Shown one piece after another: positions 16,534-38,628 of a stretch of DNA of 45,755 nt; the first letter of the stretch is position 1, and each line of letters starts with the position of its first letter. Made by a program: the position numbers and the translations under genes. The stretch is from Candidatus Aquivivens invisus. GTDB taxonomy: Bacteria; Omnitrophota; Gorgyraeia; Aquiviventales; Aquiviventaceae. The notes beneath the pieces were generated by a model. The model did not search any database, had not been told where the DNA came from, and saw only the letters and a program-made list of their open reading frames with translations. The stretch is taken from assembly GCA_001804415.1 (NCBI GenBank), contig MHGA01000044.1, positions 1 to 45,755 on the forward strand. Reading direction: 5' to 3'.

Positions 16534-16775
16534 TGAGATGCGAAACAGACCGAAAGGGAGCCTGTAAGCCGAGTTCTGTGCCCCCATGCTACTTTCCCCT
16601 CGTGAGAGGGGCAGGAAAGTATGGGAGTGATGGCCATCCATCTTGGCCCCGCTTTGCAACGGAGCTCCTGCGGCCTACCTCCTCACCGCCCCGCCGTCAG
16701 GCGGGGACTCGGGCGGGCCACCCGAGAAGCGAGACGTTTGGCCTTGCTCCGCGTAGAGATTGCCGCGTTTCACGT

Positions 16776-16826
16776 CCCCCCCATAGATTTGCTTCGCAAC
16801 GCGAAGCAAATCTAAACATGGGGGCT
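16776..16826. repeat. C-run/G-run palindrome inserted in rnpB (copy 1)
   Basis: Inner arms TAGATTTGCTTCGC (16784-16797) and its exact complement (16801-16814) around a 3-base loop, flanked by CCCCCAT and ATGGGGG. Same plan as 16956-16992 and 38549-38585. Confidence 0.85.
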
Positions 16827-16955
16827 GCTCGTCTCTGTGGCTCTTCCGCCACACAGCGTGGCGGATCCGCCTTTCGACGGAAATCCTCCCCCGGGTCGCC
16901 CCGGGAGGCCCCGCGGTTAGCGGGGTACGCTGCCCTGTGGAGCTCGGACTTTCCT

Positions 16956-16992
16956 CCCCCCTAGATTTGCTTCGCAAATCTAACCAGGGGGG
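16956..16992. repeat. C-run/G-run palindrome inserted in rnpB P3 (copy 2)
   Basis: Six C, then TAGATTTGC (16962-16970), loop TTC, GCAAATCTA (16974-16982), a short A-rich spacer and six G. It occupies the P3 arm immediately before the conserved GAGGAAAGTCC core. Confidence 0.85.
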
Positions 16993-17016
16993 CGACCATC
17001 CAGCTCCCTTTCGGTG

Positions 17017-22805: not shown

Positions 22806-24314
22806 TTATTGGCCACCCGCGGCCGCCACGGACTGCTGGGATTTGTCTTGGACCAGATGAACGGTCATGAAGATCAACAGATCCAGCTGATCCTGGCCCG
22901 AGGGGGTCTGCTCCCGGCGATTGGTGAACAGCGCCCCAAGAATCGGGATGTCCCCAAGAACCGGCACTTTGCTCAGCGTAATGCGCTCCGCCTGTCGTTT
23001 CAATCCGCCGATCGCCAGCGTCTGTCCATCGATGAGCCGGACTTGCGTCTTCGCTTTCTGGACATCAAAATCCGGAAAGGTGATGCCTGAGGCATAGGTC
23101 CGGTCGGAGCCGACCGTGGTGATTTCCGGATTGACATCCATGACGATTTCGCTGCGGAGATTGACATAGGGTTTCACCTTCAGGATGATCCCGGTCTCAC
23201 GCGTCTCAAATCCGCTGACCGTCGCCCGGCCCGTCGAGGGATCCACCTGAAAATTCGGGATGTTCACATCGGTGCCCACCTGGACGCTGGCTTCTTGATT
23301 GTTCAGCGTGACGATGGTGGGATTCGAGATCACGCGCGTATCCACCCGCTGCTTGAGCATGTTGATGGTCGTCGCCAACTGGGACATGGTGATCGTCCCG
23401 AAGACGAACTGCCCGCCCGCGTTCGGGATGACGCCGCGGTTCGCCGCCGCGCTGGTGGCCGTTGAGGTGCCGGTGTAGAAAATATCCCCCGGCCTGGTGA
23501 GGAACTCGCTCCCGATCTTCCCATAGGTGGCCCCTTGCCGGAACGGAAAGGTGGTTGACGACGTGGCCGGAGTGACCGTGATGGGCATGCTGTCGAACCA
23601 GTCAATCCCCAGATTTTCATCGCGGGTCAATCGCGTTTCAACGAAGCGGGATTCGATGTGAACCTGGGGGGTTTGCTGATCCAGCCGCGCCACGATTTGC
23701 TTCAACTGAAACAGGTTCGAGGGCAAATCGGTGATGATGACGGCATTGGTGCGCTCATCGAACTTCGCCTTGCCGCGGTCCGTCAGCATCTCTTTGGCAA
23801 TCTCCATCACCTCCGCCGCCTTGGCGTAGCTCAGCGGAAAGACCTCGGTCGCCAGCGCCTCCTGCTCCACCGCTTCAAGGCTCATCACGCGGATGACATC
23901 GCCTGTCCGCTCGTAGAGGAAGCTGTAGGTCCGCAGCACGATATCGAGGGCTTGCTCCCAGGGCACATCGGTGAGCTTGATCGTCACCAGCCCCTCCACA
24001 TCAGGGCCCGCCACGATATCCACGCCGCTTTTGAGGGAGAGAATCCGCAACACCTGCCTGATGTCCGCGTCCTTGAAGTCCACGCTGATGAGCCCTGAGG
24101 CGGACGGTTCGAGTGATTCCACCGGGGAACCGGCGGCGACCTCGCCAACCGGCTCATCGGTGGTCATCGCCTCCTCGTCAATGGCGGACGCGTCAGATCC
24201 CGTCTCATCCGACCACGCCGTATCAGTGACCAGTGACCAGTGACCAGTGACCAGTGACACGGCGACGAGCCCCACAAACCACGTGAGCAGCCGGCCAGCC
24301 AACGTATGCCTCAT
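22806..24314 (-). CDS. pilQ: Type IV pilus secretin PilQ
   Basis: Forms the outer-membrane pore for the pilus. The 502-aa protein has a signal peptide (MRHTLAGRLLTWFVGLVAVS), a secretin/TonB short domain (about 76-140, ISVDFKDADIRQVLRILSLK), an N1-type domain (LPSNLFQLKQIVARLDQQTPQVHIESRFVE) and the secretin core ending with GVGG-like segments and VPVLGDIPILGALFTNR. It is short for PilQ and lacks AMIN domains. Five copies of a 7-bp repeat lie in frame right after the signal peptide core. Last structural gene of pilMNOPQ, overlapping pilP by 4 bases. Confidence 0.93.
   Translation of the reverse strand: MRHTLAGRLLTWFVGLVAVSLVTGHWSLVTDTAWSDETGSDASAIDEEAMTTDEPVGEVAAGSPVESLEPSASGLISVDFKDADIRQVLRILSLKSGVDIVAGPDVEGLVTIKLTDVPWEQALDIVLRTYSFLYERTGDVIRVMSLEAVEQEALATEVFPLSYAKAAEVMEIAKEMLTDRGKAKFDERTNAVIITDLPSNLFQLKQIVARLDQQTPQVHIESRFVETRLTRDENLGIDWFDSMPITVTPATSSTTFPFRQGATYGKIGSEFLTRPGDIFYTGTSTATSAAANRGVIPNAGGQFVFGTITMSQLATTINMLKQRVDTRVISNPTIVTLNNQEASVQVGTDVNIPNFQVDPSTGRATVSGFETRETGIILKVKPYVNLRSEIVMDVNPEITTVGSDRTYASGITFPDFDVQKAKTQVRLIDGQTLAIGGLKRQAERITLSKVPVLGDIPILGALFTNRREQTPSGQDQLDLLIFMTVHLVQDKSQQSVAAAGGQ
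24224..24258. repeat. Five perfect CAGTGAC heptamers inside pilQ
   Basis: Five exact tandem copies of CAGTGAC on the plus strand. In the pilQ frame they encode the SLVTGHWSLVTDT segment at the end of the signal peptide region. Confidence 0.9.
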
Positions 24315-24739
24315 GGTTTTCCTCCCTCTTGGTCAAACGTCATCCGGACCGTCACCCGGCGACCCTCCTGGTCCAGCACGACATAGTCTGGATGAATCTC
24401 CGCGACCTGATACCCTCCGATCGCATCCCCCACCATCGCTTCCTTGTCATTCAGGAGCGCGATCGAACGGCCTGCCGGATCCCACAGGATCCCTCCCAAC
24501 AAGGGCAGCGAGAGATCCACCGGCGCTGAGGCGGACGGCACCTCACCGGCGATGGCGATCATTCGTCCATCCCGCACGAGCGGCACAAAGGGGTCCCGCT
24601 TACCCTTAGCATCGTAGAGGACCTGCGCCGGCTCGATTTGAGGCTCTGCCCATCCGACCTGCCTCCACGCCGCCATCAGCCACAGGATCAGCACGGCACA
24701 GAGTGGGGCGTTACGAAGATGGTGTTGGCTCATCGTCAA
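24311..24739 (-). CDS. pilP: Pilus assembly lipoprotein-like PilP
   Basis: Links the PilNO inner-membrane complex to PilQ. The 142-aa protein has an N-terminal hydrophobic segment (CAVLILWLMAAWR) and the PilP HR domain: KRDPFVPL at the start and GIL(W)DPAGRSIALLNDKEAMVGDAIGGY followed by VVLDQEGRRVTVRM. A lipobox is not clear. It overlaps pilO by 29 bases and pilQ by 4 bases. Confidence 0.88.
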   Translation of the reverse strand: MTMSQHHLRNAPLCAVLILWLMAAWRQVGWAEPQIEPAQVLYDAKGKRDPFVPLVRDGRMIAIAGEVPSASAPVDLSLPLLGGILWDPAGRSIALLNDKEAMVGDAIGGYQVAEIHPDYVVLDQEGRRVTVRMTFDQEGGKP

Positions 24740-25310
24740 TCGTCACATAGGTCAGGAGGAGCAGCCGGATGGTGTGGCGCCGCAGCTCTCGAGCCGCCTG
24801 CGCGATGCGCAATTGTTTCACTTCCACCGGCTGGTCACCCGATTCAACCTGACTGAGAAACATCCCAAATTGATGGAAGCCCGACAGGGCATCGATTTCG
24901 ATGGCGATCGCTTTGTAGGGTGCGGTGGCCGACGGGGCGGACGCCTCACGGGCGCTTGCGTGCTGGTCGGAGCGTTGAGGGGAGATGGACAGGATCCTCA
25001 CGCCTGTTTGGCTGGCGAGCCCTGAGAGCCGCTCAATCAGTGACGGCAGCTCATCTTCAGAGGGCAGCTGATCGCGCAACTGCTCGACCTCGGCCTCGAG
25101 TTGTCCGTACTCCCGGCGGATCGCGTGACCTTGGTCGATCAGCTCCTCGAGCTGGCGGACCTGCTCGGCGACGTCGTGCACCTGTTGGCCCAGATGAGCC
25201 ACCTCGCTGCCAAGCGGCTGAAGCAGGTAGAGATACGACGCGTACACCGCGAGGGCCGCGAAGACGATCAGAGCCGCCAGAAGGCGCTGTTTTTTAGTCG
25301 TGCGTTTCAT
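24711..25310 (-). CDS. pilO: Type IV pilus inner-membrane protein PilO
   Basis: A 199-aa bitopic protein: short basic N-terminus (MKRTTKKQR), one membrane span (LLAALIVFAALAVYASYLYL), a coiled coil (about 30-80) and a C-terminal ferredoxin-like domain with GFHQFGMFLSQVESGDQPVEVKQL. It pairs with PilN in the periplasm. It starts 3 bases after the pilN stop. Confidence 0.9.
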   Translation of the reverse strand: MKRTTKKQRLLAALIVFAALAVYASYLYLLQPLGSEVAHLGQQVHDVAEQVRQLEELIDQGHAIRREYGQLEAEVEQLRDQLPSEDELPSLIERLSGLASQTGVRILSISPQRSDQHASAREASAPSATAPYKAIAIEIDALSGFHQFGMFLSQVESGDQPVEVKQLRIAQAARELRRHTIRLLLLTYVTIDDEPTPSS

Positions 25311-25313
25311 CGG

Positions 25314-25877
25314 CTATTGCAACGTGCCGGTCAGGGTAAAGAGGGCCATCTCGACGTCATGTTCTTTGACGCTCTTGATGGACTCGATTTGGATGTCCTG
25401 GACCATGGAGGCAAAGGCAGGCTGGTCCTTGAGACTTTGAACCAACTGGCCGATGGCCACCATTTCCTGCCCTTCCTGACCGAGGGCGGCCCCCTCAATC
25501 ACGAGCCCCTGCACCGGCTCGAGCGAGAAGGCCGTCAACCAAATCCCGTCCGGCGTTGCATCGGAGAGCGCATTGAGCCGCATCGCCACGGAGCTCTCAC
25601 CCCGTTTCAGGCCCTGAAAGGCTTTCTGCTGCGCGCGAAGGCGTTGGAGGGCGACGCGGAGCTGCTCGATTTCCACACGTTCCGGTTGAAGCTCCTGGAA
25701 TTGCTCGGTGAGGTGAACGAGCTGCATCCGACGAACTTGTCTGACCAGGGCGAGTGCTAGCGTGAGACCAAAGACGAGCACCACGATGAGGAGAACCAGC
25801 GGCGACCGGTGGAGCTGCGGCAGCGTGGGTACCGCGGCTTTGCGATAGGACTCAGGGAGCAGGTTAATGGCGAGCAT
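25314..25877 (-). CDS. pilN: Type IV pilus inner-membrane protein PilN
   Basis: The 187-aa protein starts MLAINLLPESYRK, matching the conserved PilN N-terminal INLLP motif that binds PilM. A membrane span (LVLLIVVLVFGLTLALALVR), coiled coil and ferredoxin-like domain (PDGIWLTAFSLE) follow. The start ATG overlaps the pilM stop by one base (TGATG); the longer frame to 25943 is rejected. Confidence 0.92.
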   Translation of the reverse strand: MLAINLLPESYRKAAVPTLPQLHRSPLVLLIVVLVFGLTLALALVRQVRRMQLVHLTEQFQELQPERVEIEQLRVALQRLRAQQKAFQGLKRGESSVAMRLNALSDATPDGIWLTAFSLEPVQGLVIEGAALGQEGQEMVAIGQLVQSLKDQPAFASMVQDIQIESIKSVKEHDVEMALFTLTGTLQ

Positions 25878-26917
25878 CACACCCGCAACGCCAAGCCATA
25901 GGCGACGGCAAACTGACTCGAGACCCGCTCCGAGAACGGCCACGGGACCAACGGCTGCGTGAGATGTTTTTTCAGCGCTTCAAGGAATCCGACCGATTGA
26001 CTCAAGCCACCGCTGAGCAGCAGTTGACTCGGCGAGGGTCCGAAATGACTTTCGAAGAAATCGAACGAGAGCTGGAGTTCTTGCACGAGGGCCTCGCACG
26101 CCGCGGCGAACGCCTCGAACACCTGAGGAGGCGGCAGGGCGGATTGTCTCAGTTGTGCCAACGCCGCCGGCTGGTCGATCCCACAGCGTTGCGCAACGTC
26201 CTGGATGAACTTCTCCGCGCCCCAGGGAATATCACGCACCAGGTACGGCACCCCGGCCTTCAGGACCGCCAGGTTGGTCCACTGGGCCCCCACGTTGATC
26301 AAGGCCGGCGCCTCGGCGCGTCCCCTGTGGTCGGCGTGCTCCAAAAAGGCGTTCGCCAACGCCAAGGCATCGACATCGACGGTGGTGACTTCGCACCCCG
26401 CGTGGTTCACCCAGGCAAGCCGTCGTTCCAGGACATCCTTTTTGCACGCAGCCACCAGGACCCACATCTTGCTGCCACCGGACGCGCCCAGCACCGCCCC
26501 ATCCAAGACCACATCTTGAATATTGAACGGCAGGGAGCGCTGCGCTTCAAACGGCAGGGCCTGCCGAAACTCGTCGGGGGTCAGCGTTGGCATTTCCACC
26601 ACCCGCAGAACCACCCACTGCCCGCTGACCGCCATCGTCACGCCTTTCAGGTGAGGGACTCGCAATCCGTTCAACGCCTGACGGATGGCCTCAGGGATGC
26701 GGGATTCATCGCCGGCGGTCAGTTCCACAAGCTGGACCCCAAGCACCCGACGCGCCCCCAGGGTCTTGTGAGGTCCTAACGCGACGGCCTTCACGGACGA
26801 AGAGCCGACATCGAGCCCCACGGTGGGCCCACCCTCCTTGGGTTGAATGGCCACCAACCGCTTCACCACCTGCCAGCCCTGCAGGAGGGGACGCGGGAGC
26901 GAGGGGGCAGACACCAT
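25877..26917 (-). CDS. pilM: Type IV pilus actin-like ATPase PilM
   Basis: A 346-aa cytoplasmic actin-fold protein that binds ATP and the PilN N-terminus. Phosphate-1 motif GLDVGSSSVKAVALG is near residue 34, and LINVGAQWTNLAVLKAG and LLLSGGLSQSVGFLEALKKHL are the later actin-fold motifs. First gene of pilMNOPQ; a hairpin at 26953-26991 separates it from the minor pilin genes upstream. Confidence 0.93.
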   Translation of the reverse strand: MVSAPSLPRPLLQGWQVVKRLVAIQPKEGGPTVGLDVGSSSVKAVALGPHKTLGARRVLGVQLVELTAGDESRIPEAIRQALNGLRVPHLKGVTMAVSGQWVVLRVVEMPTLTPDEFRQALPFEAQRSLPFNIQDVVLDGAVLGASGGSKMWVLVAACKKDVLERRLAWVNHAGCEVTTVDVDALALANAFLEHADHRGRAEAPALINVGAQWTNLAVLKAGVPYLVRDIPWGAEKFIQDVAQRCGIDQPAALAQLRQSALPPPQVFEAFAAACEALVQELQLSFDFFESHFGPSPSQLLLSGGLSQSVGFLEALKKHLTQPLVPWPFSERVSSQFAVAYGLALRV

Positions 26918-26952
26918 GGTCAGAACTGGTTTCCCAAATGCTTTCTGGTACT

Positions 26953-26991
26953 GATTACGGTGATTGTCGTCAAGTCCTCATCACCGTAATC
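26953..26991. repeat. 12-bp-arm inverted repeat before pilM
   Basis: GATTACGGTGAT (26953-26964) and its exact complement (26980-26991) around 15 bases, with a third partial copy AATCACCGCAATC at 27001-27013. No T-run follows, so it is not an obvious intrinsic terminator. Confidence 0.8.
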
Positions 26992-27037
26992 ACGTCTTTC
27001 AATCACCGCAATCCCTCTCAAGGGTATGTGAAATAGG

Positions 27038-27664
27038 CTAGGGATTTCGCAATTTGACCTGGGTTCGCAGCGGGGCCGGGGTCGTGCGGACACTGCCGGT
27101 GGCCAGATAGGCTGAGGCCAACCGGTTTTCTAACCGAACGGTCACCGTTTTGGTGCTGTTCGTATAGTCCGCCTGGAAGGTTTGGACGTCGTTGGACAAC
27201 GTCGCCGGACAGGTCGCGCTGCCGAAGTCGGCGATGACGGTATCTGAGCCGGCCGTTTGACAGCGGACCAGCCGCACGTTCGTCGCATTCGTCGCATCCA
27301 GCAGATAATGAATCCAGCCGCCCGTCATCGTATCGTTGCCCCAGCAGATGCCCCCGCACAGGGCGTCGTCATAGCTGCGGGCGATCTGGAAATTCAGCCG
27401 TGTGGTGTTCGTGACATCCTGGTTCGGAGCCGTGGTGGGGGAATCGACGTTACCAGCCTCCCGCAATTCCTTCACCATGGCGTCAAGCGCCCGGCGGGCC
27501 TGCTGCTGGACATGGGTGGAGGCCTCCGAGGTCACAAACGCCCGCTGGTCCATCAGCAAACTGACCGCGAGGGCGCCTCCAATGGCCACAAAAATCGCCA
27601 CGGCGATGAGGAGTTCCGTGATCGTCAACCCGCGCCGAGACATGAGACATGGGACGTGGGACAT
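27038..27664 (-). CDS. Type IV minor pilin, PilW/PilJ-like
   Basis: About 208 aa with a prepilin-like N-terminus: SRRGLTITELLIAVAIFVAI, where cleavage would fall after the Gly and Glu is at +5. Its middle part, DQRAFVTSEASTHVQQQARRALDAMVKELREAG, is typical of PilW-type minor pilins. The start at 27664 is chosen because AAGGAG stands exactly 8 bases upstream; that site and the flanking codons are built from a 7-bp repeat tract. An in-frame ATG at 27727 has no ribosome site. Confidence 0.78.
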   Translation of the reverse strand: MSHVPCLMSRRGLTITELLIAVAIFVAIGGALAVSLLMDQRAFVTSEASTHVQQQARRALDAMVKELREAGNVDSPTTAPNQDVTNTTRLNFQIARSYDDALCGGICWGNDTMTGGWIHYLLDATNATNVRLVRCQTAGSDTVIADFGSATCPATLSNDVQTFQADYTNSTKTVTVRLENRLASAYLATGSVRTTPAPLRTQVKLRNP

Positions 27665-27713
27665 GGGACGTGCTCCTTGTCGCTTGTCCCTTGTCGCTTG
27701 TCGCTTGTCTCTG
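27644..27713. repeat. Ten tandem 7-bp units at the pilV/pilW-like junction
   Basis: Ten consecutive heptamers, first GGGACGT/GGGACAT type (27644-27671), then GTCGCTT/GTCCCTT type (27679-27713). The tract holds the ribosome site and start of the PilW-like gene and runs up to the stop of the PilV-like gene. Confidence 0.88.
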
Positions 27714-27714
27714 A

Positions 27715-28338
27715 TCAGGAGCGGCATGTCATCAGGGTCGCCAGCATGGCTTGGGATTCAATCACCCCATTGGCGGCGAACCCGTTGCTTCCATCCGAGG
27801 AGCTCAGCGTCGCGCCACCCCAGGCGCATTCTCCAAGCGTGCGACTGCGATGACGCCAGCACACCGCCACCGTCACGCGGATGGGGTCATCGTTTTGCGC
27901 GCACGCGGCGGTGCCGGCTGAATTCTGGCAGGTCACGATGACCAGTTCCTCGGTGGCCGGATTGGGCTGAATGCTCTTGCCCAGCGCGCACCGCTGGAGC
28001 CACGCATCCCACGTGTTTACCGCCTGACCGTCACAGTTCGTCTGGATCGTCGCGGAGGGCCGGGTCGTGCAATTGGGCGTCGTATTTTGCAACCGGAGCT
28101 GCTCCATGACTCGATTCGCATCGGTGATCGCCCACGTGAGGTTCCTGGCATGCTCGGCGAGGATCATCTGTCCGATAAACGCCCCCAAAAACGCCATCAT
28201 GGCGATGCTCAAGATGGCCACGCCGATGAGCACCTCCGGCAGCGTCAGCCCAGAGACACGAGACAGGAGACACGAGACAGGAGACTTTTTTGTCTTCCCA
28301 CGAGTCTCCAGTCTCAGGTCTCCAGTCTCAGGTCTCAT
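27715..28338 (-). CDS. Type IV minor pilin, PilV-like
   Basis: The 207-aa frame contains a type III-methylation-type N-terminal hydrophobic segment VSGLTLPEVLIGVAILSIAMMAFLG with Glu at +5 relative to a cleavage after Gly. The C-terminal part has several Cys residues and no close named match. The only canonical start (28338) lies inside a heptamer unit, so the 30 residues before the prepilin motif (MRPETGDLRLETRGK...) are repeat-encoded and would be removed by prepilin peptidase. No Shine-Dalgarno is visible. Confidence 0.7.
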   Translation of the reverse strand: MRPETGDLRLETRGKTKKSPVSCLLSRVSGLTLPEVLIGVAILSIAMMAFLGAFIGQMILAEHARNLTWAITDANRVMEQLRLQNTTPNCTTRPSATIQTNCDGQAVNTWDAWLQRCALGKSIQPNPATEELVIVTCQNSAGTAACAQNDDPIRVTVAVCWRHRSRTLGECAWGGATLSSSDGSNGFAANGVIESQAMLATLMTCRS

Positions 28339-28373
28339 GTCTCAGGTCTCTGGTCTCATGTCGCTGGTCGCTT
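28254..28373. repeat. Heptamer tracts at the start of the PilV-like gene
   Basis: Five AGACACG/AGACAGG units (28254-28288) and ten GTCTCAG/GTCTCCA/GTCGCTT units (28304-28373), in complementary orientation, so they can pair across about 15 bases. They provide the start codon and leader codons of the PilV-like gene. Confidence 0.9.
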
Positions 28374-28376
28374 GTT

Positions 28377-28895
28377 TCAGCAGGCCAATGGCAGATCCGT
28401 GACCAGCGCATCGGTGGCATCCCCCGGGCCGGCACCTGTGCAATGACGCACGCGCCCGGTCTGATCCGCGAAAAATGCCCGCGTGCCAAGTGATCCGATC
28501 GACTGAGGATTCGCGGTGAGGGTGTAGCCTGTGCAGTCGGTCGCGCACCCGCCCGGCTGGGGGGTATAGGTATAGAGATAGCCCTGCGACAGCGAGTTCG
28601 CCATGGGGACGTCGAACGACGGCGAGCCGTAGTCCGGCTCCGCGTCATCGTACATGGCCGCCTGCCAGCCGGACGGAAACGTGTTGTTGATTGCATGGTA
28701 CATGTGCAGCACCGAGGTCAGCGCGTGCACGTTGCCGATGGCGGTGGCTTCGTTGGTGGTGCTGCGGGCTCGCAAGATACTCTGGATCGCGATGACCGCC
28801 AGGAGGCTCACGATCCCCAACGTGACAACCAGCTCGATCATCGTGAAGCCCGCCCCCAGCCGAATGGCTGTTGAGCGACCCAGCGATCGGCGCAT
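28377..28895 (-). CDS. Type IV pilin paralogue with C-terminal cysteine loop
   Basis: About 172 aa. The prepilin motif AGFTMIELVVTLGIVSLLAVIAI is cleaved after Gly with Glu at +5. The mature protein has RSTTNEATAIGN, EPDYGSPSFD, a FFADQTGRVRHC motif and ends TDLPLAC, so a C-terminal disulfide between RHC and the last Cys is likely. The start at 28895 is chosen because a GC hairpin (28913-28942) lies in the codons of the longer GTG-started frame (28964). It is a paralogue of the pilins at 28990 and 31174. Confidence 0.8.
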   Translation of the reverse strand: MRRSLGRSTAIRLGAGFTMIELVVTLGIVSLLAVIAIQSILRARSTTNEATAIGNVHALTSVLHMYHAINNTFPSGWQAAMYDDAEPDYGSPSFDVPMANSLSQGYLYTYTPQPGGCATDCTGYTLTANPQSIGSLGTRAFFADQTGRVRHCTGAGPGDATDALVTDLPLAC

Positions 28896-28912
28896 CAGCC
28901 ACCGAGCGAGGT

Positions 28913-28942
28913 GGGGCCTCGCGCGTTGGACGCCGAGGCCCC
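28913..28942. repeat. GC-rich hairpin between pilin genes
   Basis: Perfect arms GGGGCCTCG (28913-28921) and CGAGGCCCC (28934-28942) with a 12-base loop. No U-tract follows; it may act as an mRNA processing or stability stem downstream of the major pilin gene. Confidence 0.7.
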
Positions 28943-28989
28943 CCTCTGCTCTCGATAGGCACACTCACGATCACCACTGTCACAACGGC

Positions 28990-29475
28990 TCAACACGCCG
29001 CAGGCGCGGCGTCGAGCGTGGCATCATCCGCCATGCCCGCAGCCGTGCCAGTCCCCCGGCAGTGCCGGACGATCCCGGTCTGATTGGTGAAGAACGACCG
29101 CGTGCCTGTCGTGCCCACGGCGTTTGGAACGGACAGGAGCGTGTACGTCTGCGCCGTGACCGTGGCGTACGTGTAGTTGTACCCTTGCACCGTCTGGCCG
29201 GTCAACGCCAGGTCGAACGCCGGCGGGCCGTAGTCCGGATCGGCGTTCGTGTACATGTCGGCCTGCCAACTGTTCGGCGGGTACACATTGTTGACCGACC
29301 GGAACATCTCCAGCCCGGACGCCAAGGCCCGGAAGTTCGCAATCGCCGCCGACTCATTGGCCGTCGTGCGACCACGCAAGACGTTCGGGATCGCAATCGC
29401 CGCCAGCAGGGCGATGATCGCGACCACGATCATGACTTCGACCAGCGTAAACCCGCGGTCAGCAACCGGTTTCAT
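28990..29475 (-). CDS. Type IV pilin, probable major pilin behind a riboswitch
   Basis: A 161-aa prepilin from MKPVADRGFTLVEVMIVVAI: short basic leader, cleavage after Gly8, Glu at +5 and a long hydrophobic helix. The mature part has RGRTTANESAAIANFRALAS, DADPDYGPPAFD-type loop, FFTNQTGIVRHC and a terminal Cys (DAAPAC). GGAGGAAG lies before ATG 29475. The much longer frame to 29649 is rejected. It is the first gene after the promoter, aptamer and terminator at 29658-29917, which suggests it encodes the dose-controlled major subunit. Very similar at DNA level to 31174-31677. Confidence 0.88.
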   Translation of the reverse strand: MKPVADRGFTLVEVMIVVAIIALLAAIAIPNVLRGRTTANESAAIANFRALASGLEMFRSVNNVYPPNSWQADMYTNADPDYGPPAFDLALTGQTVQGYNYTYATVTAQTYTLLSVPNAVGTTGTRSFFTNQTGIVRHCRGTGTAAGMADDATLDAAPAAC

Positions 29476-29657
29476 GGGCACTTCCTCCTGTTGGCGGGCT
29501 GTGCGTGGCGGGAAGGATGTTGGAATGATTATGCCCTCTTGTGCCTTCCGTGACCCCACACCTGAAGCCGCGCCTATGTTGCGTACGTGCGCCGCACCCT
29601 GTTCGCAGCGCCCCTGCCAGCCCTGCATAGGTTTCCTCTGATTCCGCACCTCCTTTC

Positions 29658-29691
29658 AAAGAAAAACGCCATTGCCGCATGGACAATGGCG
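29658..29691 (-). terminator. Intrinsic terminator in the pilin leader
   Basis: On the minus strand CGCCATTG, a 9-base loop and CAATGGCG, followed by TTTTTCTTT. It lies 183 bases upstream of the pilin start, and its loop and 3' arm contain CATGCGGCAA, the exact complement of TTGCCGCATG in the upstream aptamer helix. Confidence 0.88.
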
Positions 29692-29710
29692 TACCGGACC
29701 CTTCGTCCCA

Positions 29711-29879
29711 CTCATGCGGCAACTCAGCCACCCTGTTGAAGATGGGTATAGCGTCTCTCTTCTCTTCGGTTCGCACCAGCCGGGAAGCTGCCTCTGAACC
29801 GGACGCCCCTACTCGCTTCTCCCACAGGGTCTGTAGCTTTCCGACCCCGCCTCTCGACGAGTGTGGCTTGTTCGCTGAG
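29711..29879 (-). ncRNA. GEMM-like cyclic-dinucleotide riboswitch aptamer (possible cGAMP type)
   Basis: Leader RNA of the pilin operon. On the minus strand: P1 5' strand CTCAGCGAAC, AAGCC, a P2 hairpin around CTCGTCGAG, the core GGGGTCGGAAAGC, P3 with AGC-TACAG-ACCCTGT pairing ACAGGGT-G-GCT, then GAGTTGCCGC and ATGAG closing P1. This is the GEMM order (P1, P2, GACGCAAAG-like core, P3 with receptor-like bulge, GGGTTGCC). The P3 tip carries about 100 extra bases. In a hand alignment the base equivalent to G20 of the Vc2 aptamer is A, and CGGAAA replaces CGCAAA, both as in Geobacter cGAMP-binding GEMM-Ib. No covariance model was run. Confidence 0.6.
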
Positions 29880-29887
29880 ACACCTGT

Positions 29888-29917
29888 ACTATGCCACAAC
29901 GCTGCGCCTTTCGTCAA
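29888..29917 (-). promoter_or_regulatory. Promoter of the riboswitch-controlled pilin operon
   Basis: Minus-strand TTGACG (29912-29917), 18-bp spacer, CATAGT (29888-29893), beginning about 18 bases downstream of the pilC stop. Predicted RNA start is just upstream of the aptamer P1 strand. Confidence 0.7.
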
Positions 29918-29935: not shown

Positions 29936-31150
29936 CTAATAACCGGGAGTGACGAGCTGGGAGATTTTGAAGATCGGCAGAAACAGCGCAATGACAATGG
30001 AGCCGATAATCAGCCCCAGCACGGCGATGATGATCGGCTCAATCAGGCTCGTGAGGGCGGCAACCGCCGTATCCACCTCGTTTTCATAGAACTCGGAGAT
30101 TTTGGACAGCATGCGCTCAAGCTCCCCGGTTTTCTCACCCACGGAGATCATCCGGGTCACCATGGGGGGAAAGACGCGGCTTTTGGCCAGCGGGTCCGCG
30201 ATGTTCGCCCCCTCCCGGATGCTGGAGCGCGCCGCCAGGGCGGCGTGTTCGATCAGTCGGTTCCCTGCCGTTTTGGCGACGATTTCCAAGGAGGTCAGAA
30301 TGGGCACCCCGGATTTCGACAAGGTCGCCAGGGTCCGGGTGAACCGCGCGATGGCGACCTTCTGCAGGAGAGGTCCGATCAGGGGAAGCTGGAGTTTGAG
30401 GCGATCAAACCACAGCTGGCCGACCGGCGTGGTGAGGAAAGCCCGAAACGCCACGAGCATCGCGATGCCCGCCGCGACCATGAGGAGGAAATATTTCCTC
30501 AAGAGGGCGCTGGCCGCCAGCAGGATCTGGGTCGGCATCGGCAACGTGCCGCCCAGCGAGGTGAAGATCCCCTGAAATTTCGGCACCACGACGACGACCA
30601 GGAACGTGGTGATGGAGAACGCCAAAATGCACACGAGCGCCGGATAAAACAGGCTGGCGCGCACCTTGTTCCTGAGCATATCGGCTTTCTCCATATACCC
30701 TGCGAGCCGATCCAGGATCTCATCCAACCGTCCCGAGGATTCGCCGGCCTTGACCATGTTGACGAAGAACTCCGAGAACACAGGGGTCTGCTTGGCCAGC
30801 GCCTCAGAGAGACTTGCGCCGGCTTGCACCTGGCCGAGGATCGTGCGCAGGATCCGGCGGAACGTGCGATCCTCCATCTGCTCCGACAAGACGTCCAGCG
30901 ATCCCACAATGGGGATGCCGCTGGCCACCATCGTGGCAAGCTGCCTCGAGAAGATGACGAGCTGCTGGATCGCGACCCGCGGCTGGCCGATGCCAAAGAG
31001 CGGCTGGCCGGACGGGCGCTCCTCGACCGAGATGACGAGGAGGTCTTGCTTCCACAGCTCCTCGACGAGGGCGGTTTTGGACGCGGTCTCCAGCGTCCCG
31101 CTGCGGGTGTGCCCGGCTTTATCCTTGACCACGTACGTAAAGGTCGGCAT
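29936..31150 (-). CDS. pilC: Type IV pilus inner-membrane platform protein PilC
   Basis: The 404-aa protein has an N-terminal cytoplasmic segment (MPTFTYVVKDKAGHTRSGTLE) and two T2SSF repeats, the first with FSRQLATMVASGIPIVGSLD and the second with FTRTLATLSKSGVPILTSLEI, each followed by membrane helices; the C-terminus is hydrophobic. Length is standard. It connects the motor ATPases to the pilus fibre. Last gene of the riboswitch-1 operon, followed 18 bases later by the second pilin promoter. Confidence 0.95.
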   Translation of the reverse strand: MPTFTYVVKDKAGHTRSGTLETASKTALVEELWKQDLLVISVEERPSGQPLFGIGQPRVAIQQLVIFSRQLATMVASGIPIVGSLDVLSEQMEDRTFRRILRTILGQVQAGASLSEALAKQTPVFSEFFVNMVKAGESSGRLDEILDRLAGYMEKADMLRNKVRASLFYPALVCILAFSITTFLVVVVVPKFQGIFTSLGGTLPMPTQILLAASALLRKYFLLMVAAGIAMLVAFRAFLTTPVGQLWFDRLKLQLPLIGPLLQKVAIARFTRTLATLSKSGVPILTSLEIVAKTAGNRLIEHAALAARSSIREGANIADPLAKSRVFPPMVTRMISVGEKTGELERMLSKISEFYENEVDTAVAALTSLIEPIIIAVLGLIIGSIVIALFLPIFKISQLVTPGY

Positions 31151-31681: not shown

Positions 31682-33391
31682 TTACTCGTCAGAGGTCACG
31701 TGGAGCACTTCCTCAAGGCTCGTCAGCCCCATCGCGGCTTTTCTCAAGCCGTCTTCTCGCAGCGTCTTCATGCCTAAGCGCTCCGTCGCATCGCGTTTGA
31801 TATCCCACGAGGGCGCCTGGCTGACGATGAGATTCCGAATCGGCTCATCAATCGGAAGGATCTCGATGAGCCCGACGCGGCCCCGGTAGCCGGTCTGGCG
31901 ACAGGCAGAGCAGCCTTTGGCGGTATAGAAGGCGGCGTCCTCAGGCGGGGCATACCCCAGGCGCTGCAGCAGCTCAGCGGGCGGCTTGAACGGCTCGCGG
32001 CATTTGCGGCAGAGGGTTCGCACCAGCCGTTGCGCTTCAATCAGGACGATGCTCGACGCCACCAGAAACGGCTCCACCCCCATGTCGATGAGGCGGGTGA
32101 CCGCCGAGGCGGTGTCATTGGTGTGCAGCGTCGAGAGGACCAAGTGGCCGGTGAGGCTCGCCTTCATGGCGATGTCGGCTGTTTCGAAATCGCGGATCTC
32201 CCCCACCATCACCACGTCAGGGTTCTGGCGCAAGATCGCCCGCAGCCCTGCGGCGAAGGTCAGGCCGATGTCGGGATTCACCGGTACCTGCGTGATGCCT
32301 TCGACCTGGTATTCGACGGGATCTTCGATGGTAATCAGGCTTCGGGTCGACTCATTGAGCTGGCTCAAGACCGCGTAGAGCGTGGTAGACTTTCCGGACC
32401 CGGTCGGCCCGGTCACCAGGATCATCCCGTGCGGGCGCTGGGCGGCTTCTTTGAGGGGCGCGACGGACTCCGGCAGGAAGCCGAGGCGCTCCAATCCCGC
32501 CGCGAGCTGGGCTTTGTCCAAGGCCCGCAAGACGACCTTGCCTCCATAGGTGATGGGAAGGACCGACACGCGGAAATCGACTTCCTGGCCTTCAAGCCGC
32601 ACCTTGAACCGCCCGTCCTGCGGAAGCCTCCACTCGGTGATATCCAGTCCCGCCATGATCTTCAACCTCGTGAGCACCGTGTTCTGAACCTCTTTCGGAA
32701 ACTGATGGGTCTGCGCGAGACGCCCGTCAATCCGGTATCGCACGCGCAGGCCCTGCTCCATCGGCTCCAGATGAATGTCAGAGGCCCGCTTCCTGAGCGC
32801 CTCGCGGATCATCTGGTTGATCGCCGTGATGATCGGCGCCTCGCCCTCCCCTTCCGACATGACGAGATTCACGATGCTCTCGTCTTTGCCCGTCTCCTCT
32901 TGTTCGGTCGAGGCCTCGGGTGCCTTGCCATCCTCCAGAGTGCTCGCCAATGCCGAGGAGGGCCCATAGATCTGCTCAATCGCCCGACGGATCTCGGCCT
33001 CCGGGACCAGCACGGGATCGACGGCATACTGGGTCAGTATCTTGAGATCATCCAACGCCATCAAGTCCAAGGGATCCGCCATCGCCACGATGACGCGCTC
33101 GCCGAATTTGGACAGCGGGATCACGGCATATTGGCGCGCGATCCGCTCCGGAATCAAATTCGCCACAGCGGGATCCACGCGGTATTTCGCGAGGGAGAGC
33201 GTCGGGATTTGCATCCCCTCAGCCAGGAGCCCTACCAGGGCCTCCTCGGTCATGACCCGGCGATCGATCAGCAACCGGGTGAAGCTCATCCCCTGCTCGC
33301 CGGCTTCCTTGAGCAGGCTGCTGAGCTGCTCCCTGGCCAGCAGGCCTTTTGACACGAGGAGCTCTGACAGTCGTTCCCGAAAGCTGCTCAT
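31682..33391 (-). CDS. pilB: Type IV pilus assembly ATPase PilB, second copy, with MshEN domain
   Basis: Hexameric ATPase that powers pilus extension. The 569-aa protein starts MSSFRERLSELLVSKG. It has an N-terminal MshEN (GSPII_E_N) domain (about 1-150), then the motor with Walker A GPTGSGKSTTLYAVL, Walker B VVMVGEIRDFETADIA, and a zinc site CRKCREPF ... CSACRQTGYRG. MshEN domains of this type bind c-di-GMP in characterised ATPases. Residues before the Met at 33391 in the longer frame come from a dyad repeat (33390-33495) and are rejected. Two PilB genes in tandem are unusual. Confidence 0.92.
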   Translation of the reverse strand: MSSFRERLSELLVSKGLLAREQLSSLLKEAGEQGMSFTRLLIDRRVMTEEALVGLLAEGMQIPTLSLAKYRVDPAVANLIPERIARQYAVIPLSKFGERVIVAMADPLDLMALDDLKILTQYAVDPVLVPEAEIRRAIEQIYGPSSALASTLEDGKAPEASTEQEETGKDESIVNLVMSEGEGEAPIITAINQMIREALRKRASDIHLEPMEQGLRVRYRIDGRLAQTHQFPKEVQNTVLTRLKIMAGLDITEWRLPQDGRFKVRLEGQEVDFRVSVLPITYGGKVVLRALDKAQLAAGLERLGFLPESVAPLKEAAQRPHGMILVTGPTGSGKSTTLYAVLSQLNESTRSLITIEDPVEYQVEGITQVPVNPDIGLTFAAGLRAILRQNPDVVMVGEIRDFETADIAMKASLTGHLVLSTLHTNDTASAVTRLIDMGVEPFLVASSIVLIEAQRLVRTLCRKCREPFKPPAELLQRLGYAPPEDAAFYTAKGCSACRQTGYRGRVGLIEILPIDEPIRNLIVSQAPSWDIKRDATERLGMKTLREDGLRKAAMGLTSLEEVLHVTSDE

Positions 33392-33495
33392 CCCACGCCC
33401 TGCTGGTTGGCCGCAGGCCGTCCCGCTATGGCGGGACGTTTCGCCTTCGGCGAGGCTTGACATGGAGGCTGGCGAAACCCCGCAGGGCGTGGGAT
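33390..33495. repeat. 106-bp multi-stem dyad between the two pilB genes
   Basis: Outer arms of 14 bp (33390-33403 and 33482-33495, ATCCCACGCCCTGC), an inner palindrome with CGTCCCGC / GCGGGACG arms (33419-33438) and a further 7-bp stem TTTCGCC / GGCGAAA. The element exactly fills the space from the stop of one pilB to the start of the next. The inner core resembles that of the element at 41550-41663. Confidence 0.9.
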
Positions 33496-35210
33496 CATCC
33501 TACCGCTTCCCCGACCGTGGTGCGAAACACTTCCTCCAACGTGGTGACCCGCTGTTTGACTTTTTCCAGCGCGTCCTCACGGAGCGTGCGCATGCCGACC
33601 GTTCGCGCCGCTTCCTCGATCGCATGCTCCTGGGCTTTGTGCAGAATCAGCTCCCGGATTGCCGGGGTGAGCGTCAGGACTTCCGCAATCACCTGCCGGC
33701 CCCGGTATCCGGACTGGGCGCACACCTGGCATCCGGTCCCTTTCGCCAACTCCAGCGCGCGGCCATGGGCGTCCAGCAAGCCGAACCGTTTTGCCAGCGC
33801 CTCGGGCGGCCGATAGGTCACGGCGCACCGCTGGCAGATCTTCCGAACCAGCCGTTGGCCGACGACGAGCGTCAAGCACGAATTGATCAGAAACGGCTCC
33901 ACCCCCATATTCACCAACCTGACCACGGTGCCGATCGCGCTGTAGGTGTGGAGGGTGCTGAGCACCAGGTGGCCTGTCAAGGCGGCTTTCACCGCCATGT
34001 CGGCGGTCTCGCCGTCACGAATCTCTCCCACAAGGATCACATTGGGATCTTGACGCAGAATGGCTCGCAACGCTTTCGCAAACGTCAGGTCGATATCGGC
34101 TCTCACCGTCACCTGATTGATCCCCTCCAACTGATACTCCACCGGATCTTCAACGGTCACGAGGTTCTTATCAGGTTGATCGATATGCTTCAGGAGCGCA
34201 TAGAGGGTCGTCGTCTTGCCGGAGCCGGTCGGGCCGGTGGATAAGATCATGCCGTGCGGACGCGACGCCGCCTGTTTCAGCGCCGCGAGGTCTTCCGGAC
34301 GAAAAGCCATGGCGTCGAGATCCAACGAGACCTGCTCACGGTCCAGCACCCGCAACACCACCTTCTCCCCGAAACTCGAAGGGAGGACGGAGACGCGCAC
34401 GTCGATCGCTCGATCGTCCACGGGAATCGTGAAGTGCCCATCCTGGGGGAGCCGGTGCTCGGCGATGTCCAGCTCCGACATGACCTTGATGCGGGAAATG
34501 ACGGCCTGCTGCAAGGATTTGGGGGGGCCGTCGACCTCTTGCAACAACCCGTCAATGCGGTAGCGAACCCGCACCCTGGTTTCCATCGGTTCGAACAAGA
34601 TGTCAGAGGCCCGGAGATGGACGGCCCGCAGCAGGATCGCATCCATCAGCCGCACGACCGGCTGCGCTTGGCTGGCGCTCAGCGCCCCTTCCCCCTCGGC
34701 GTCTTCAGCGCCCTCCACGGATTCGGCTCCGGGTTGCTGGGCGGTCCGAACCATCTCGTTGATGGTCTCATCCATGCCGGTCCCGTAGTACACGTCGATG
34801 GCCTCTCGGATATCCTTCATGGTCGCCAGCATGGGATTGACGGCCAGCCCCGTCATCGTGGCCAGCGTTTCCAGCGCAAAGAGGTTCAACGGATCCGCCA
34901 TGGCCACGGTCAATGTCTGGCCGATGCATGACATCGGGATCACGTCGTACTGCTTGGCGATGTGCTGCGGGATGAGGGTCTTGAGCTGCTCATCGACCTT
35001 GAAACGGGTCAAGCTGATCAACGGGATGTGCAGTTCTTGACCGATGAGGGCGAGCAGCTCCGGCTCTTTGACGAAGCCTCTGCGGAGCAGGATGTCCTGG
35101 AGACTCCCTCCCTGCACCTGTTGGGCCTTGAGGGCCTCCTGGAGCCGCTCGGGCGTCACCAGATGCTTGGAGACCAGCAGTTCAGTGAGCCGTGCCTTCA
35201 GACTTGCCAT
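33495..35210 (-). CDS. pilB: Type IV pilus assembly ATPase PilB, first copy, with MshEN domain
   Basis: The 571-aa protein starts MASLKARLTELLVSKHL. It has an N-terminal MshEN domain (LVTPERLQEALKAQQVQGGSLQDILLRRGFV), Walker A GPTGSGKTTTLYALL, Walker B VILVGEIRDGETADMA and the paired-Cys zinc site CQRCAVTYRP ... CQVCAQSGYRG. It differs from the downstream copy enough to suggest two specialised motors. The start at 35210 lies inside the 3' end of the standalone MshEN gene (29-base overlap), so translation is probably coupled; no Shine-Dalgarno is visible. Confidence 0.92.
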   Translation of the reverse strand: MASLKARLTELLVSKHLVTPERLQEALKAQQVQGGSLQDILLRRGFVKEPELLALIGQELHIPLISLTRFKVDEQLKTLIPQHIAKQYDVIPMSCIGQTLTVAMADPLNLFALETLATMTGLAVNPMLATMKDIREAIDVYYGTGMDETINEMVRTAQQPGAESVEGAEDAEGEGALSASQAQPVVRLMDAILLRAVHLRASDILFEPMETRVRVRYRIDGLLQEVDGPPKSLQQAVISRIKVMSELDIAEHRLPQDGHFTIPVDDRAIDVRVSVLPSSFGEKVVLRVLDREQVSLDLDAMAFRPEDLAALKQAASRPHGMILSTGPTGSGKTTTLYALLKHIDQPDKNLVTVEDPVEYQLEGINQVTVRADIDLTFAKALRAILRQDPNVILVGEIRDGETADMAVKAALTGHLVLSTLHTYSAIGTVVRLVNMGVEPFLINSCLTLVVGQRLVRKICQRCAVTYRPPEALAKRFGLLDAHGRALELAKGTGCQVCAQSGYRGRQVIAEVLTLTPAIRELILHKAQEHAIEEAARTVGMRTLREDALEKVKQRVTTLEEVFRTTVGEAVG

Positions 35211-35646
35211 GGTTATAGGAGCGCTCCAACGCTTTGAGGACGTCCGTGGGGGTGCTGATGAACGCCTGCACGACACAGTTGGTGAGCATCTCGATATCCT
35301 CGATGGCCTGGATATTGGACGGATCGGCCATGCTCACCGTCAGGGCATTCCCGACCCGATCAATCGGAATGACGCAGTACTGCCGCGCCACATGTTCAGG
35401 AATCAACCGCACCATGCTATCGTCGAGCTCATAGTTCTCCAGGGGAAGATAGGGGAACCCGTATTGGGCTGTCAGCGCCAACGCGATTTCCTCCTCGCTC
35501 GCAAATCCGAGCTGCGTCAACACCTGGCCCAGCAATCCGCCGTGCGTCCGCTGGTACGCCAAGGCCTCTTCGAGGTGCTTGGGGCTAATCACCCCGCGCT
35601 CCAGCAGGACTTCCCCCAGTTTTTTGGTCACCACGCGCCGTGCCAT
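35182..35646 (-). CDS. Standalone MshEN (GspE N-terminal) domain protein
   Basis: A 154-aa protein consisting of just the N-terminal domain of PilB/GspE ATPases: KLGEVLLERGVISPKHLEEA, LAYQRTHGGLLGQVLTQLGF, LTAQYGFPYLPLENYELDDS and PEHVARQYCVIPIDRVGNAL. No Walker motifs are present. MshEN modules bind c-di-GMP through two 24-residue motifs; the spaced Leu/Gly pattern needed is visible (GEVLLERGVISPKHLEEAL, LGQVLTQLGFASEEEIALAL). It overlaps pilB and follows pilT by 21 bases. A c-di-GMP-sensing subunit or regulator of the two PilBs is the likely role, by inference. Confidence 0.82.
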   Translation of the reverse strand: MARRVVTKKLGEVLLERGVISPKHLEEALAYQRTHGGLLGQVLTQLGFASEEEIALALTAQYGFPYLPLENYELDDSMVRLIPEHVARQYCVIPIDRVGNALTVSMADPSNIQAIEDIEMLTNCVVQAFISTPTDVLKALERSYNHGKSEGTAH

Positions 35647-36756: not shown

Positions 36757-38208
36757 TTACGCGCCGGCCCCTGTCGGCGCACCGGCGCCCACGGGGTGCA
36801 GCGAGGTCGACGCTTTCTCAATCAAGTCATCCCCCGTCATCCCGTCAAGGGGGTTTTCGGCAATCCCCACCTCCAACCTGAGCGGCGTGGCCCCGTTGGA
36901 GAACTCGGCGAACGTGGTCAGGAGCCGCCGGCCCAGCTCGTCCGAGATCTCCAGGGCTTGGCGCTTGTTCCGTTCCGGCAGCAGGGCGACGATCTCGTTG
37001 CCAGGGAAGCGCCCCACCCGATCGATCTCGGTGACCGATTCTTGAACGAACCGCGCCACCTTTTTCAGGATCCGCTCGGCCTCCGGCTCGCCGCATCGCT
37101 GGCGGAACTCGGCCAGGCCGTGCATCCGGAACATCACGAAGCCGCACGGGCGCTGGTACATGATCGCCCGCTTGATCTCCTCATCAAGCCGCCGCTTGAT
37201 GTAACGCTCGTTGTAGACGCCGGTGAGCTCATCGCGAATGGTCAGGGTCTTGGCCTTGCGCAGCAAGACTTCATTCTCGATCGCGATGGACGTCTGCTTG
37301 GCGAACACCTTGACGAGATCGATCCACTCGGGGGTCCAGGTATACCGATCCGTCCGATTCCCCATGCCCAGGACCCCGACCTTGTGGGTCCGCATCGTCA
37401 CGGGCTGCAAGATCACATTCGGCTTTCCCAGCTGCTCCCAGAAATTCCTCAGGGCCTCCGGCGGAGGATGCCCGTGGTCAATCACCGTCTGGCCGGTCTC
37501 GGCGGGAAGCGGGTGGAGGAGGTTCACATCGAGTTGTGAGGCCCGCTTCAAGGTAAAGGCCAGATCCTCGACAGGCTGCAGCGCGAGCAGGCTGAACCCT
37601 TGATCCTCCTGGAGTGCCAGCTTCTCCACGATCAGCTCCAGGATGACGTCCAGCTCCGTGCCGCTGCCAAGCAGCTCTCCGATCTGCAGCAACCCGGAGA
37701 GCATCACGACCCGCCTGTTGATCTCCAGGTTCATCTCATTGGTCTTCTCGCCGAACTTGTTGAGCTCGGACATGTCGGTGCGGATTCTCGACGTCAACTG
37801 GTTCAAGGCTGCGGTGAGGTCGCTCAACTCATCGTCGTCCTCGGAGACAGGGAGCTGCCGGTCAAACTCGCCCGTCGCGGCGATGGCCTTCGCCTCCTGG
37901 CTGAGCCGGATGACCGGCGTGATGAGCTTGATCGTCAGATAGATGCTTCCCAGGAACGCGATGCAGGCGGTCAGGGTAATCAGCCCGATCAGCCACCAGG
38001 TCACCGCGGCGGAGTTTTCGATGATCGGGAACCAGCGCTCCAGTTGGTAGAACTCGCGCACGGACGGCAGGCCGAACCACCCCGCCATCAGGATCAACAT
38101 GATGAGGGGGATCACGGACATCAAAATGAACGAGAGGGTCAATTTCACCCGCAATCCCTGGGGGGCCATCCTCAATCCCCGAATCACATGGACGGCGAAT
38201 TCACGCAT
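36757..38208 (-). CDS. Membrane HAMP-GAF protein with a degenerate GGDEF domain
   Basis: The 483-aa protein starts MREFAVHVIRGLRM. It has two membrane segments (LTLSFILMSVIPLIMLILMAG, WLIGLITLTACIAFLGSIYL), a HAMP domain, a GAF-like domain (about 170-310) and a C-terminal GGDEF domain (DELTGVYNERYIKRRLDEEI). The signature reads PGNEI in place of GGDEF, and the RxxD inhibitory site reads TEID, so cyclase activity is unlikely. It may instead bind nucleotide or act as a scaffold. It overlaps the preceding small gene by 8 bases with a GGAGG site, directly under the c-di-GMP riboswitch. Confidence 0.85.
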   Translation of the reverse strand: MREFAVHVIRGLRMAPQGLRVKLTLSFILMSVIPLIMLILMAGWFGLPSVREFYQLERWFPIIENSAAVTWWLIGLITLTACIAFLGSIYLTIKLITPVIRLSQEAKAIAATGEFDRQLPVSEDDDELSDLTAALNQLTSRIRTDMSELNKFGEKTNEMNLEINRRVVMLSGLLQIGELLGSGTELDVILELIVEKLALQEDQGFSLLALQPVEDLAFTLKRASQLDVNLLHPLPAETGQTVIDHGHPPPEALRNFWEQLGKPNVILQPVTMRTHKVGVLGMGNRTDRYTWTPEWIDLVKVFAKQTSIAIENEVLLRKAKTLTIRDELTGVYNERYIKRRLDEEIKRAIMYQRPCGFVMFRMHGLAEFRQRCGEPEAERILKKVARFVQESVTEIDRVGRFPGNEIVALLPERNKRQALEISDELGRRLLTTFAEFSNGATPLRLEVGIAENPLDGMTGDDLIEKASTSLHPVGAGAPTGAGA

Positions 38209-38482
38209 GGGGTTTTCCTCCTCGAGTTTTGCGAAGGATCGCAAGAATCCGCTGCTCAAATTGTTCGGGGCTGTGGATGCCTTCCCCATTGAGGTGGCAG
38301 GCTCGCAGCGCGTTGACCATCGCCGATAAGATCTGCGTGCGGGAAAGCTTGACGCCGGCGGAAAAGAGGGCGTCCTTGCCCAGCTTATCCAGAAAATCCA
38401 CCTGGTCGCGGTTCAGGCAGGCAATGACGCGGTGGGCGTGCTGGGAATTTGTTGGAAGGGTCGGCTGGCGAGAATGCGTCAT
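38201..38482 (-). CDS. Hypothetical 93-aa protein, first gene behind the c-di-GMP riboswitch
   Basis: The sequence VIACLNRDQVDFLDKLGKDA followed by KLSRTQILSAMVNAL resembles a ribbon-helix-helix (CopG/Arc-like) fold, one strand and two helices, but I cannot name the family. ATG 38482 lies only 2 bases after the 3' strand of the riboswitch P1 helix, and no Shine-Dalgarno is found at normal distance, suggesting that translation is directly gated by the aptamer. It overlaps the GGDEF-like gene by 8 bases. Confidence 0.65.
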   Translation of the reverse strand: MTHSRQPTLPTNSQHAHRVIACLNRDQVDFLDKLGKDALFSAGVKLSRTQILSAMVNALRACHLNGEGIHSPEQFEQRILAILRKTRGGKPHA

Positions 38483-38484
38483 CG

Positions 38485-38628
38485 TCGTTTGGTAACCCCA
38501 CTGCCCTCCTCACGAGGGCTGGTAGTTTTGCGTCCCCCGATTACTCGGCCCCCCCATGTTTTGCTTCGCAAAACAAGCCGGGGGGTTCAGCCGTTGCTTC
38601 GGCTGAAGGTTTGCCCTGAGACAAACGA
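38485..38628 (-). ncRNA. Cyclic-di-GMP-I (GEMM-I) riboswitch with an expanded P2 arm
   Basis: On the minus strand: P1 strand TCGTTTG, then CAGGGCAAACC, a P2 region, GGGGGACGCAAA, P3 (ACT-ACCA-GCCCTC / GAGGGC-AGT), GGGGTTACC and the closing P1 strand CAAACGA. These match the GEMM-I consensus blocks closely, and the ligand-reading position in GGGC is G, as expected for c-di-GMP. P2, normally a short tetraloop stem, is replaced by two hairpins: TTCAGCCG / CGGCTGAA and the C-run/G-run palindrome at 38549-38585. The promoter at 38637-38666 places the RNA start right before P1. Confidence 0.88.
38549..38585. repeat. C-run/G-run palindrome inserted in the riboswitch (copy 3)
   Basis: Seven C, then GTTTTGC (38558-38564), loop TTC, GCAAAAC (38568-38574), a spacer and six G (38580-38585). 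Shares the TTTGCTTCGCAAA centre with the two rnpB copies. Confidence 0.85.

Follow-up and report, generated by a model that had tools for sequence, protein, structure and literature searches.

An aptamer of the c-di-GMP-I (GEMM-I) class precedes the pilin genes of a type IV pilus cluster in Candidatus Aquivivens invisus, and it very likely forms a riboswitch that acts as a transcriptional OFF switch for the pilin–PilMNOPQ part of the cluster. We analysed a stretch of 45,755 nucleotides, referred to here as the window. The initial annotation had described a full attenuator between pilC and the first pilin gene, and we located all of its parts (promoter, aptamer, terminator and pilin start) on the minus strand. 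Computation demonstrated the fold of the aptamer and its conservation, the mutual exclusion of the strands and a shift in the folding ensemble. The features are, in the order of transcription:

29936..31150, minus strand: upstream gene pilC (PF00482, 9e-64)
29888..29917, minus strand: sigma-70-like promoter, TTGACG-18-(TG)GCATAGT (1 found, 0.2 expected in shuffles)
29714..29876, minus strand: c-di-GMP-I (GEMM-I) aptamer with P1, P2 with a GNRA loop (GAGA), and P3 (RF03167, our own model R1 and family covariation)
29867, minus strand: specificity base G, equivalent to position 20 (P2 register set by CC/GG versus GC/GC covariation)
29840, minus strand: A equivalent to position 47, stacking between both ligand bases
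29819..29823, minus strand: GGGAG at the foot of the extension, able to pair with UUCCC of the tip loop (possible pseudoknot)
29734..29822, minus strand: P3 extension, 89 nt, a family-specific nested arm (own-model alignment and folds)
29777..29790, minus strand: hairpin CAGC-UUCCCG-GCUG at the tip, whose conserved loop UUCCCGG lies at 29786-29780
29713..29722, minus strand: switching strand TTGCCGCATG, the 3' strand of aptamer P3/J/P1 or the 5' strand of the antiterminator
29672..29681, minus strand: CATGCGGCAA, spanning the terminator loop and some of its 3' arm, or the 3' strand of the antiterminator
29666..29692, minus strand: intrinsic terminator hairpin of 11 pairs with a 5-nt loop, then a TTTTTCTTT tail (orthologous terminators also present)
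29647..29657, minus strand: Shine–Dalgarno-like GAAAGGAGGTG just 3' of the terminator, about 170 nt 5' of the pilin start
28990..29475, minus strand: first controlled gene, a pilin with an N-terminal methylation motif (PF07963, 2.9e-8; ATG at 29475)
22806..28964, minus strand: further genes in the same direction, encoding pilins, PilM, PilN, PilO, a PilP-like protein and the secretin PilQ

The promoter block, TTGAC...GGCATAGT, was seen again 5' of most orthologous aptamers.

The Rfam search proposed in the initial annotation returned a GEMM-family match, although at scores below the curated thresholds. The best-scoring Rfam family was RF03167, which matched at 29876-29714 (minus strand) with 51.8 bits (E=1.5e-11) against a cut-off of 59 bits, and the general c-di-GMP-I model RF01051 gave 34.0 bits against a cut-off of 35. 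These shortfalls probably stem from the 89-nt insert in P3 and from the CC/GG pairs at the foot of P2. The orthologous leaders L151 and L154 exceeded the RF01051 cut-off with 43.6 and 42.5 bits, and R1, a covariance model that we built from 25 relatives, scored the pilin-leader aptamer at 56.4 bits (E=1.7e-15). Across these 25 relatives the helices covary: 95.2% of cells were paired compared with 81.0% in shuffles, 13 pairs had changed on both sides, and the covariation score was reached in none of 500 shuffles. Shifting the pairing partners by 1–3 columns abolished the signal. The alignments also bore out the proposed plan of P3, in which AGC-UACAG-ACCCUGU pairs with ACAGGGU-G-GCU, and confirmed that its tip holds additional bases, previously put at about 100. 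The RNA has the three-helix P1–P2–P3 fold, the pocket bases G20, A47 and C92 (G29867, A29840 and C29719) and a GNRA loop on P2, of a type found in most relatives; every correctly aligned intact copy keeps G20, A47 and the CC of the 3' junction. The attenuator is real: its fold, pocket and mechanism make it a GEMM-I element, though one that scores just under the curated thresholds. Covarying helices, synteny and folding calculations agree with the earlier proposal of a GEMM-class, transcription-terminating riboswitch of OFF polarity; the genes behind it are a pilin–PilMNOPQ run.

We then considered what this aptamer binds. At the foot of P2, C29866-C29865 pairs with G29842-G29841, no alternative register pairs, and relatives alternate between GC/GC and CC/GG, which fixes the register and makes G29867 the base before P2 and A29840 the base after it. 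The specificity base is therefore G, the c-di-GMP type, and not A, as had been read one position upstream in the initial annotation. Position 20 is G in 64 of 68 aligned copies, and the other four reflect misaligned hairpins or, in one case, a degenerate tandem copy.

The cGAMP sensing suggested earlier, by a GEMM-Ib riboswitch like that of Geobacter pilM, is quite improbable on this alignment. The resemblance of the CGGAAA core to the Geobacter cGAMP switch is genuine: there P2 starts with C15-G40, with A14 before it and A41 after it (PMC6274999), and the lower P2 pair is C-G here as well. Changes in lower P2 are reported to affect ligand selectivity (PMC9262584). The Geobacter metallireducens pilM switch also shares the GEMM-I fold, transcriptional control and a pilus operon as its target, but it combines A at the specificity position with ON polarity, whereas the Omnitrophota switch has G and a predicted OFF polarity (PMC6274999 and PMC9262584). 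The base preceding P2 is G rather than A both here and in correctly aligned intact relatives, and the C-G pair occurs together with G20 in otherwise c-di-GMP-I-like copies of relatives (L028, L034 and L048). Hypr enzymes carry Ser at the GGDEF selectivity position (PMC6456294). We searched the genome (1.42 Mb, 93% complete) for GGDEF domains, and all four intact ones have Asp at this position (GH..GD); no Hypr GGDEF was seen among them. The cGAMP reading was rejected on the G specificity base and the lack of a Hypr GGDEF in this 93%-complete genome, and we infer with considerable confidence that c-di-GMP, and not the rarer cGAMP, is the likely ligand, with some caution owing to the Geobacter-like lower P2 pair.

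A further assignment, to the orphan variant class c-di-GMP-I-GGC (RF03167), is very unlikely. RF03167 has the same overall layout, besides being the top Rfam family for the aptamer, and it matches in all 27 family genomes, with other copies above its cut-off in 24 of them. From the consensus lines of RF03167 and RF03168, the 'GGC' label appears to denote G20-G47-C92. The pilin-leader aptamer and its aligned relatives have A47 in place of the consensus G, the score stays below the family cut-off, and P2 here carries CC/GG; we rejected the label on position 47 (A29840).

The switching strands proposed in the initial annotation proved to be exactly complementary over 10 nt, with TTGCCGCATG at 29722-29713 in the closing strand of the aptamer and CATGCGGCAA at 29681-29672 in the terminator. 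In the free ensemble the terminator had a probability of 0.30 and the antiterminator 0.70; when the aptamer was fixed, the terminator rose to 1.00. The cost of the aptamer was 2.6 kcal/mol, which is small next to typical c-di-GMP binding energies. Folding of growing transcripts gave the antiterminator at 1.00 at position 29672 and the terminator at 1.00 at 29666, so that the choice is made while the polymerase crosses this short stretch. Aptamer and terminator are compatible in these calculations, and the antiterminator excludes the aptamer. At low c-di-GMP, TTGCCGCATG of the nascent RNA would pair with CATGCGGCAA, which spans the terminator loop and enters its 3' arm; this would block the terminator and allow the pilus genes to be transcribed. 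With c-di-GMP bound, the aptamer would keep TTGCCGCATG in P3/P1, the terminator hairpin would form and transcription would halt 5' of the pilin gene. The calculation supports the aptamer-favoured termination proposed earlier, and from it we infer OFF polarity in the cell and an effect on pili. The same logic has been described for Cd1 of Clostridioides difficile, an OFF switch with a c-di-GMP-type aptamer that can form alongside the terminator, both in competition with an antiterminator built partly from the aptamer 3' strand; Cd1 differs in controlling flagellar rather than pilin genes, and the passages of PMC9262584 on Cd1 mention no extended, conserved P3 arm.

Alternatively, the c-di-GMP aptamer might have ON polarity, or might act on translation through the GGAGG element after the terminator. 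Judged by sequence, the genome does contain ON-type copies elsewhere, as at C27, where strand CCGGGTTGCC of the aptamer itself serves as the 5' arm of the terminator, and the Shine–Dalgarno-like element is conserved. Both variants are improbable given that the aptamer tolerates the terminator and is excluded by the antiterminator, and that the pilin has its own Shine–Dalgarno sequence and start about 170 nt further downstream. The element itself, GAAAGGAGGTG (29657-29647, minus strand), is a near-perfect complement of the anti-Shine–Dalgarno sequence, and 12 of 14 orthologous leaders have it 3' of the terminator. It lies 135–300 nt 5' of the pilin, with no start codon at the usual distance, and is possibly a standby site.

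The predicted OFF switch before the pilin genes is widely retained in the family. PilC places the genome in Candidatus Omnitrophota, with groundwater MAGs as its nearest records. In 15 of the 22 best PilC loci (orthologues with at least 57% identity), pilC is followed by promoter, aptamer, terminator and pilin in that order, a count that includes L161, in which a contig end cuts the aptamer, and L155, in which P3 is deleted. In a further genome (L180) this leader stands 5' of a pilin on a different contig, and the order pilC–GEMM–pilin also occurs in distant Omnitrophota (L063, L064, L065, L072 and L082). In L146 and L148 the promoter and a terminator-like hairpin are retained between pilC and the pilin and the aptamer is lost, which makes these two loci natural comparisons for the switch. 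Such losses, together with the deletion in L155 and the frequent insertion of hairpins into aptamers of this genome and family, would fit a decayed aptamer that leaves the terminator alone active; for the pilin-leader copy this is most unlikely, as it has all pocket bases and all of its helices are intact and covarying.

A terminator hairpin of 10–13 pairs was recovered in 12 of the 13 leaders parsed, and in the thirteenth, L144, which is the window itself, the terminator was found separately. Relatives keep both the terminator and its pairing with the aptamer strand, at −12.7 to −19.1 kcal/mol, and in L158, L159 and L165 the complement is formed by a different loop sequence; the antiterminator is thus kept or re-created. 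When antiterminator partners were swapped between leaders, cognate pairs were only slightly better (permutation p=0.07), a small gap that reflects how little the aptamer strand varies. In the ligand-free equilibrium ensemble the terminator was already dominant (0.9–1.0) in 8 of the 12 relatives computed, where switching would have to be kinetic. Fixing the aptamer weakened the terminator in none of the 12, so the direction was never contradicted. In the distant leaders L072, L082 and L065, the aptamer 3' strand is repeated within the terminators, and aptamer and terminator coexist; a clear antiterminator was not found in these three.

The P3 extension varies in length and sequence among relatives and looks like a maintained module with a putative role. 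UCCCGG occurs in 10 of 11 non-redundant extensions (mean 3.6 and maximum 6 in 1,000 dinucleotide shuffles), and UUCCCGG in 8 of 11 (shuffle maximum 4); L149 lacks the motif. The motif sits in the apical loop of a stem with covarying arms, and swapping these arms between leaders costs 2.4 kcal/mol on average (permutation p=0.0001). GGGAG at the base of the extension may form a pseudoknot with UUCCC of the tip loop: 8 of the 11 leaders allow this pairing at −7 to −9 kcal/mol, and it is weak or absent in L151, L153 and L180. When 293 genomes of the class were scanned with a 24-nt signature, allowing up to 3 mismatches, the P3-extended type was found once per genome in ten family members, with one looser match outside the family that has no extension. 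Rfam contains no family for the extension. Most probably it serves the aptamer as a structural or accessory module. We entertain only tentatively that it is a second functional module nested in the c-di-GMP aptamer. It might then act as another sensor, as a protein site or by contacting the Shine–Dalgarno-like element; if this were true, the pilus switch would combine two inputs.

About ten GEMM-like copies are present in the source genome. GEMM-I-like aptamers occur in every one of the 27 family genomes searched and number about 10–25 per genome in the richer ones, in 1–2 Mb of DNA. Palindromic hairpins interrupt most of the remaining copies in the source genome, usually between ...GGGGACGC and AAAGCC at the P2 foot (38607-38550 on the minus strand of the window, and L003, L004, L005, L006, L016, L018 and L019). 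A pattern search found hairpins with the common core GGCTTGCTTTGCGAAGCAAAGCATG in four GEMM aptamers and at two other sites, and their presence in aptamers is far above the expectation from aptamer length. Other hairpins are inserted at the same points in pilC leaders of relatives. The pilin switch itself has no inserted palindromic hairpin, only the P3 extension. In L003 (G000:C27, around 49282-49434), the GEMM strand CCGGGTTGCC forms a terminator with GGCAACCCGG, which looks like an ON switch, and this copy precedes a secreted protein with a weak match to an Ig-like domain. The RNase P RNA gene of the window (16549-17011) is 463 nt long on a 367-position model and contains a perfect 14-bp hairpin, TAGATTTGCTTCGC/GCGAAGCAAATCTA at 16784-16814, that resembles those inserted in the aptamers. 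Palindromic elements inserted into RNase P and other structured RNAs are known from other bacteria. As there, the hairpins lie at tolerant points of a structured RNA; in contrast, those of this family recur at P2 and junction positions of GEMM aptamers.

A second GEMM copy, at 38485 in the window, lies upstream in the pilus cluster. The initial annotation had called it clear: it is real, with an RF01051 score of 35.0 bits, exactly at the cut-off, but two inserted hairpins break up its P2. The genes after it encode a small conserved protein, a GGDEF protein with a degenerate active site and PilT, so that the two aptamers flank the motor and assembly genes. The small protein (93 aa, 38201-38482, minus strand) comes after the aptamer and has no Pfam family; a clear relative likewise follows a GEMM element in another family of the class (L174). 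The HAMP-GGDEF protein between this aptamer and pilT (36757-38289, minus strand) has a degenerate active site that reads PGNEI instead of GGDEF. The cluster also encodes three proteins (35182-35646, 33495-35276 and 31682-33463) with the MshEN domain PF05157, a known receptor of c-di-GMP (PMC5013675), which suggests a second, protein-level layer of c-di-GMP control.

Among the papers searched, none named both Omnitrophota and riboswitches. The host group, the conserved placement between pilC and pilin and the P3 module are new. For so well-studied an aptamer, the conserved module would be an unusual addition. Omnitrophota are uncultured bacteria, mostly with small genomes, whose lifestyle is inferred from those genomes. 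The type of aptamer between pilC and the pilin genes predicts that c-di-GMP shuts down pili at the RNA level, and c-di-GMP would thereby become a point at which control of attachment and motility could be tested, in organisms that are not open to manipulation.
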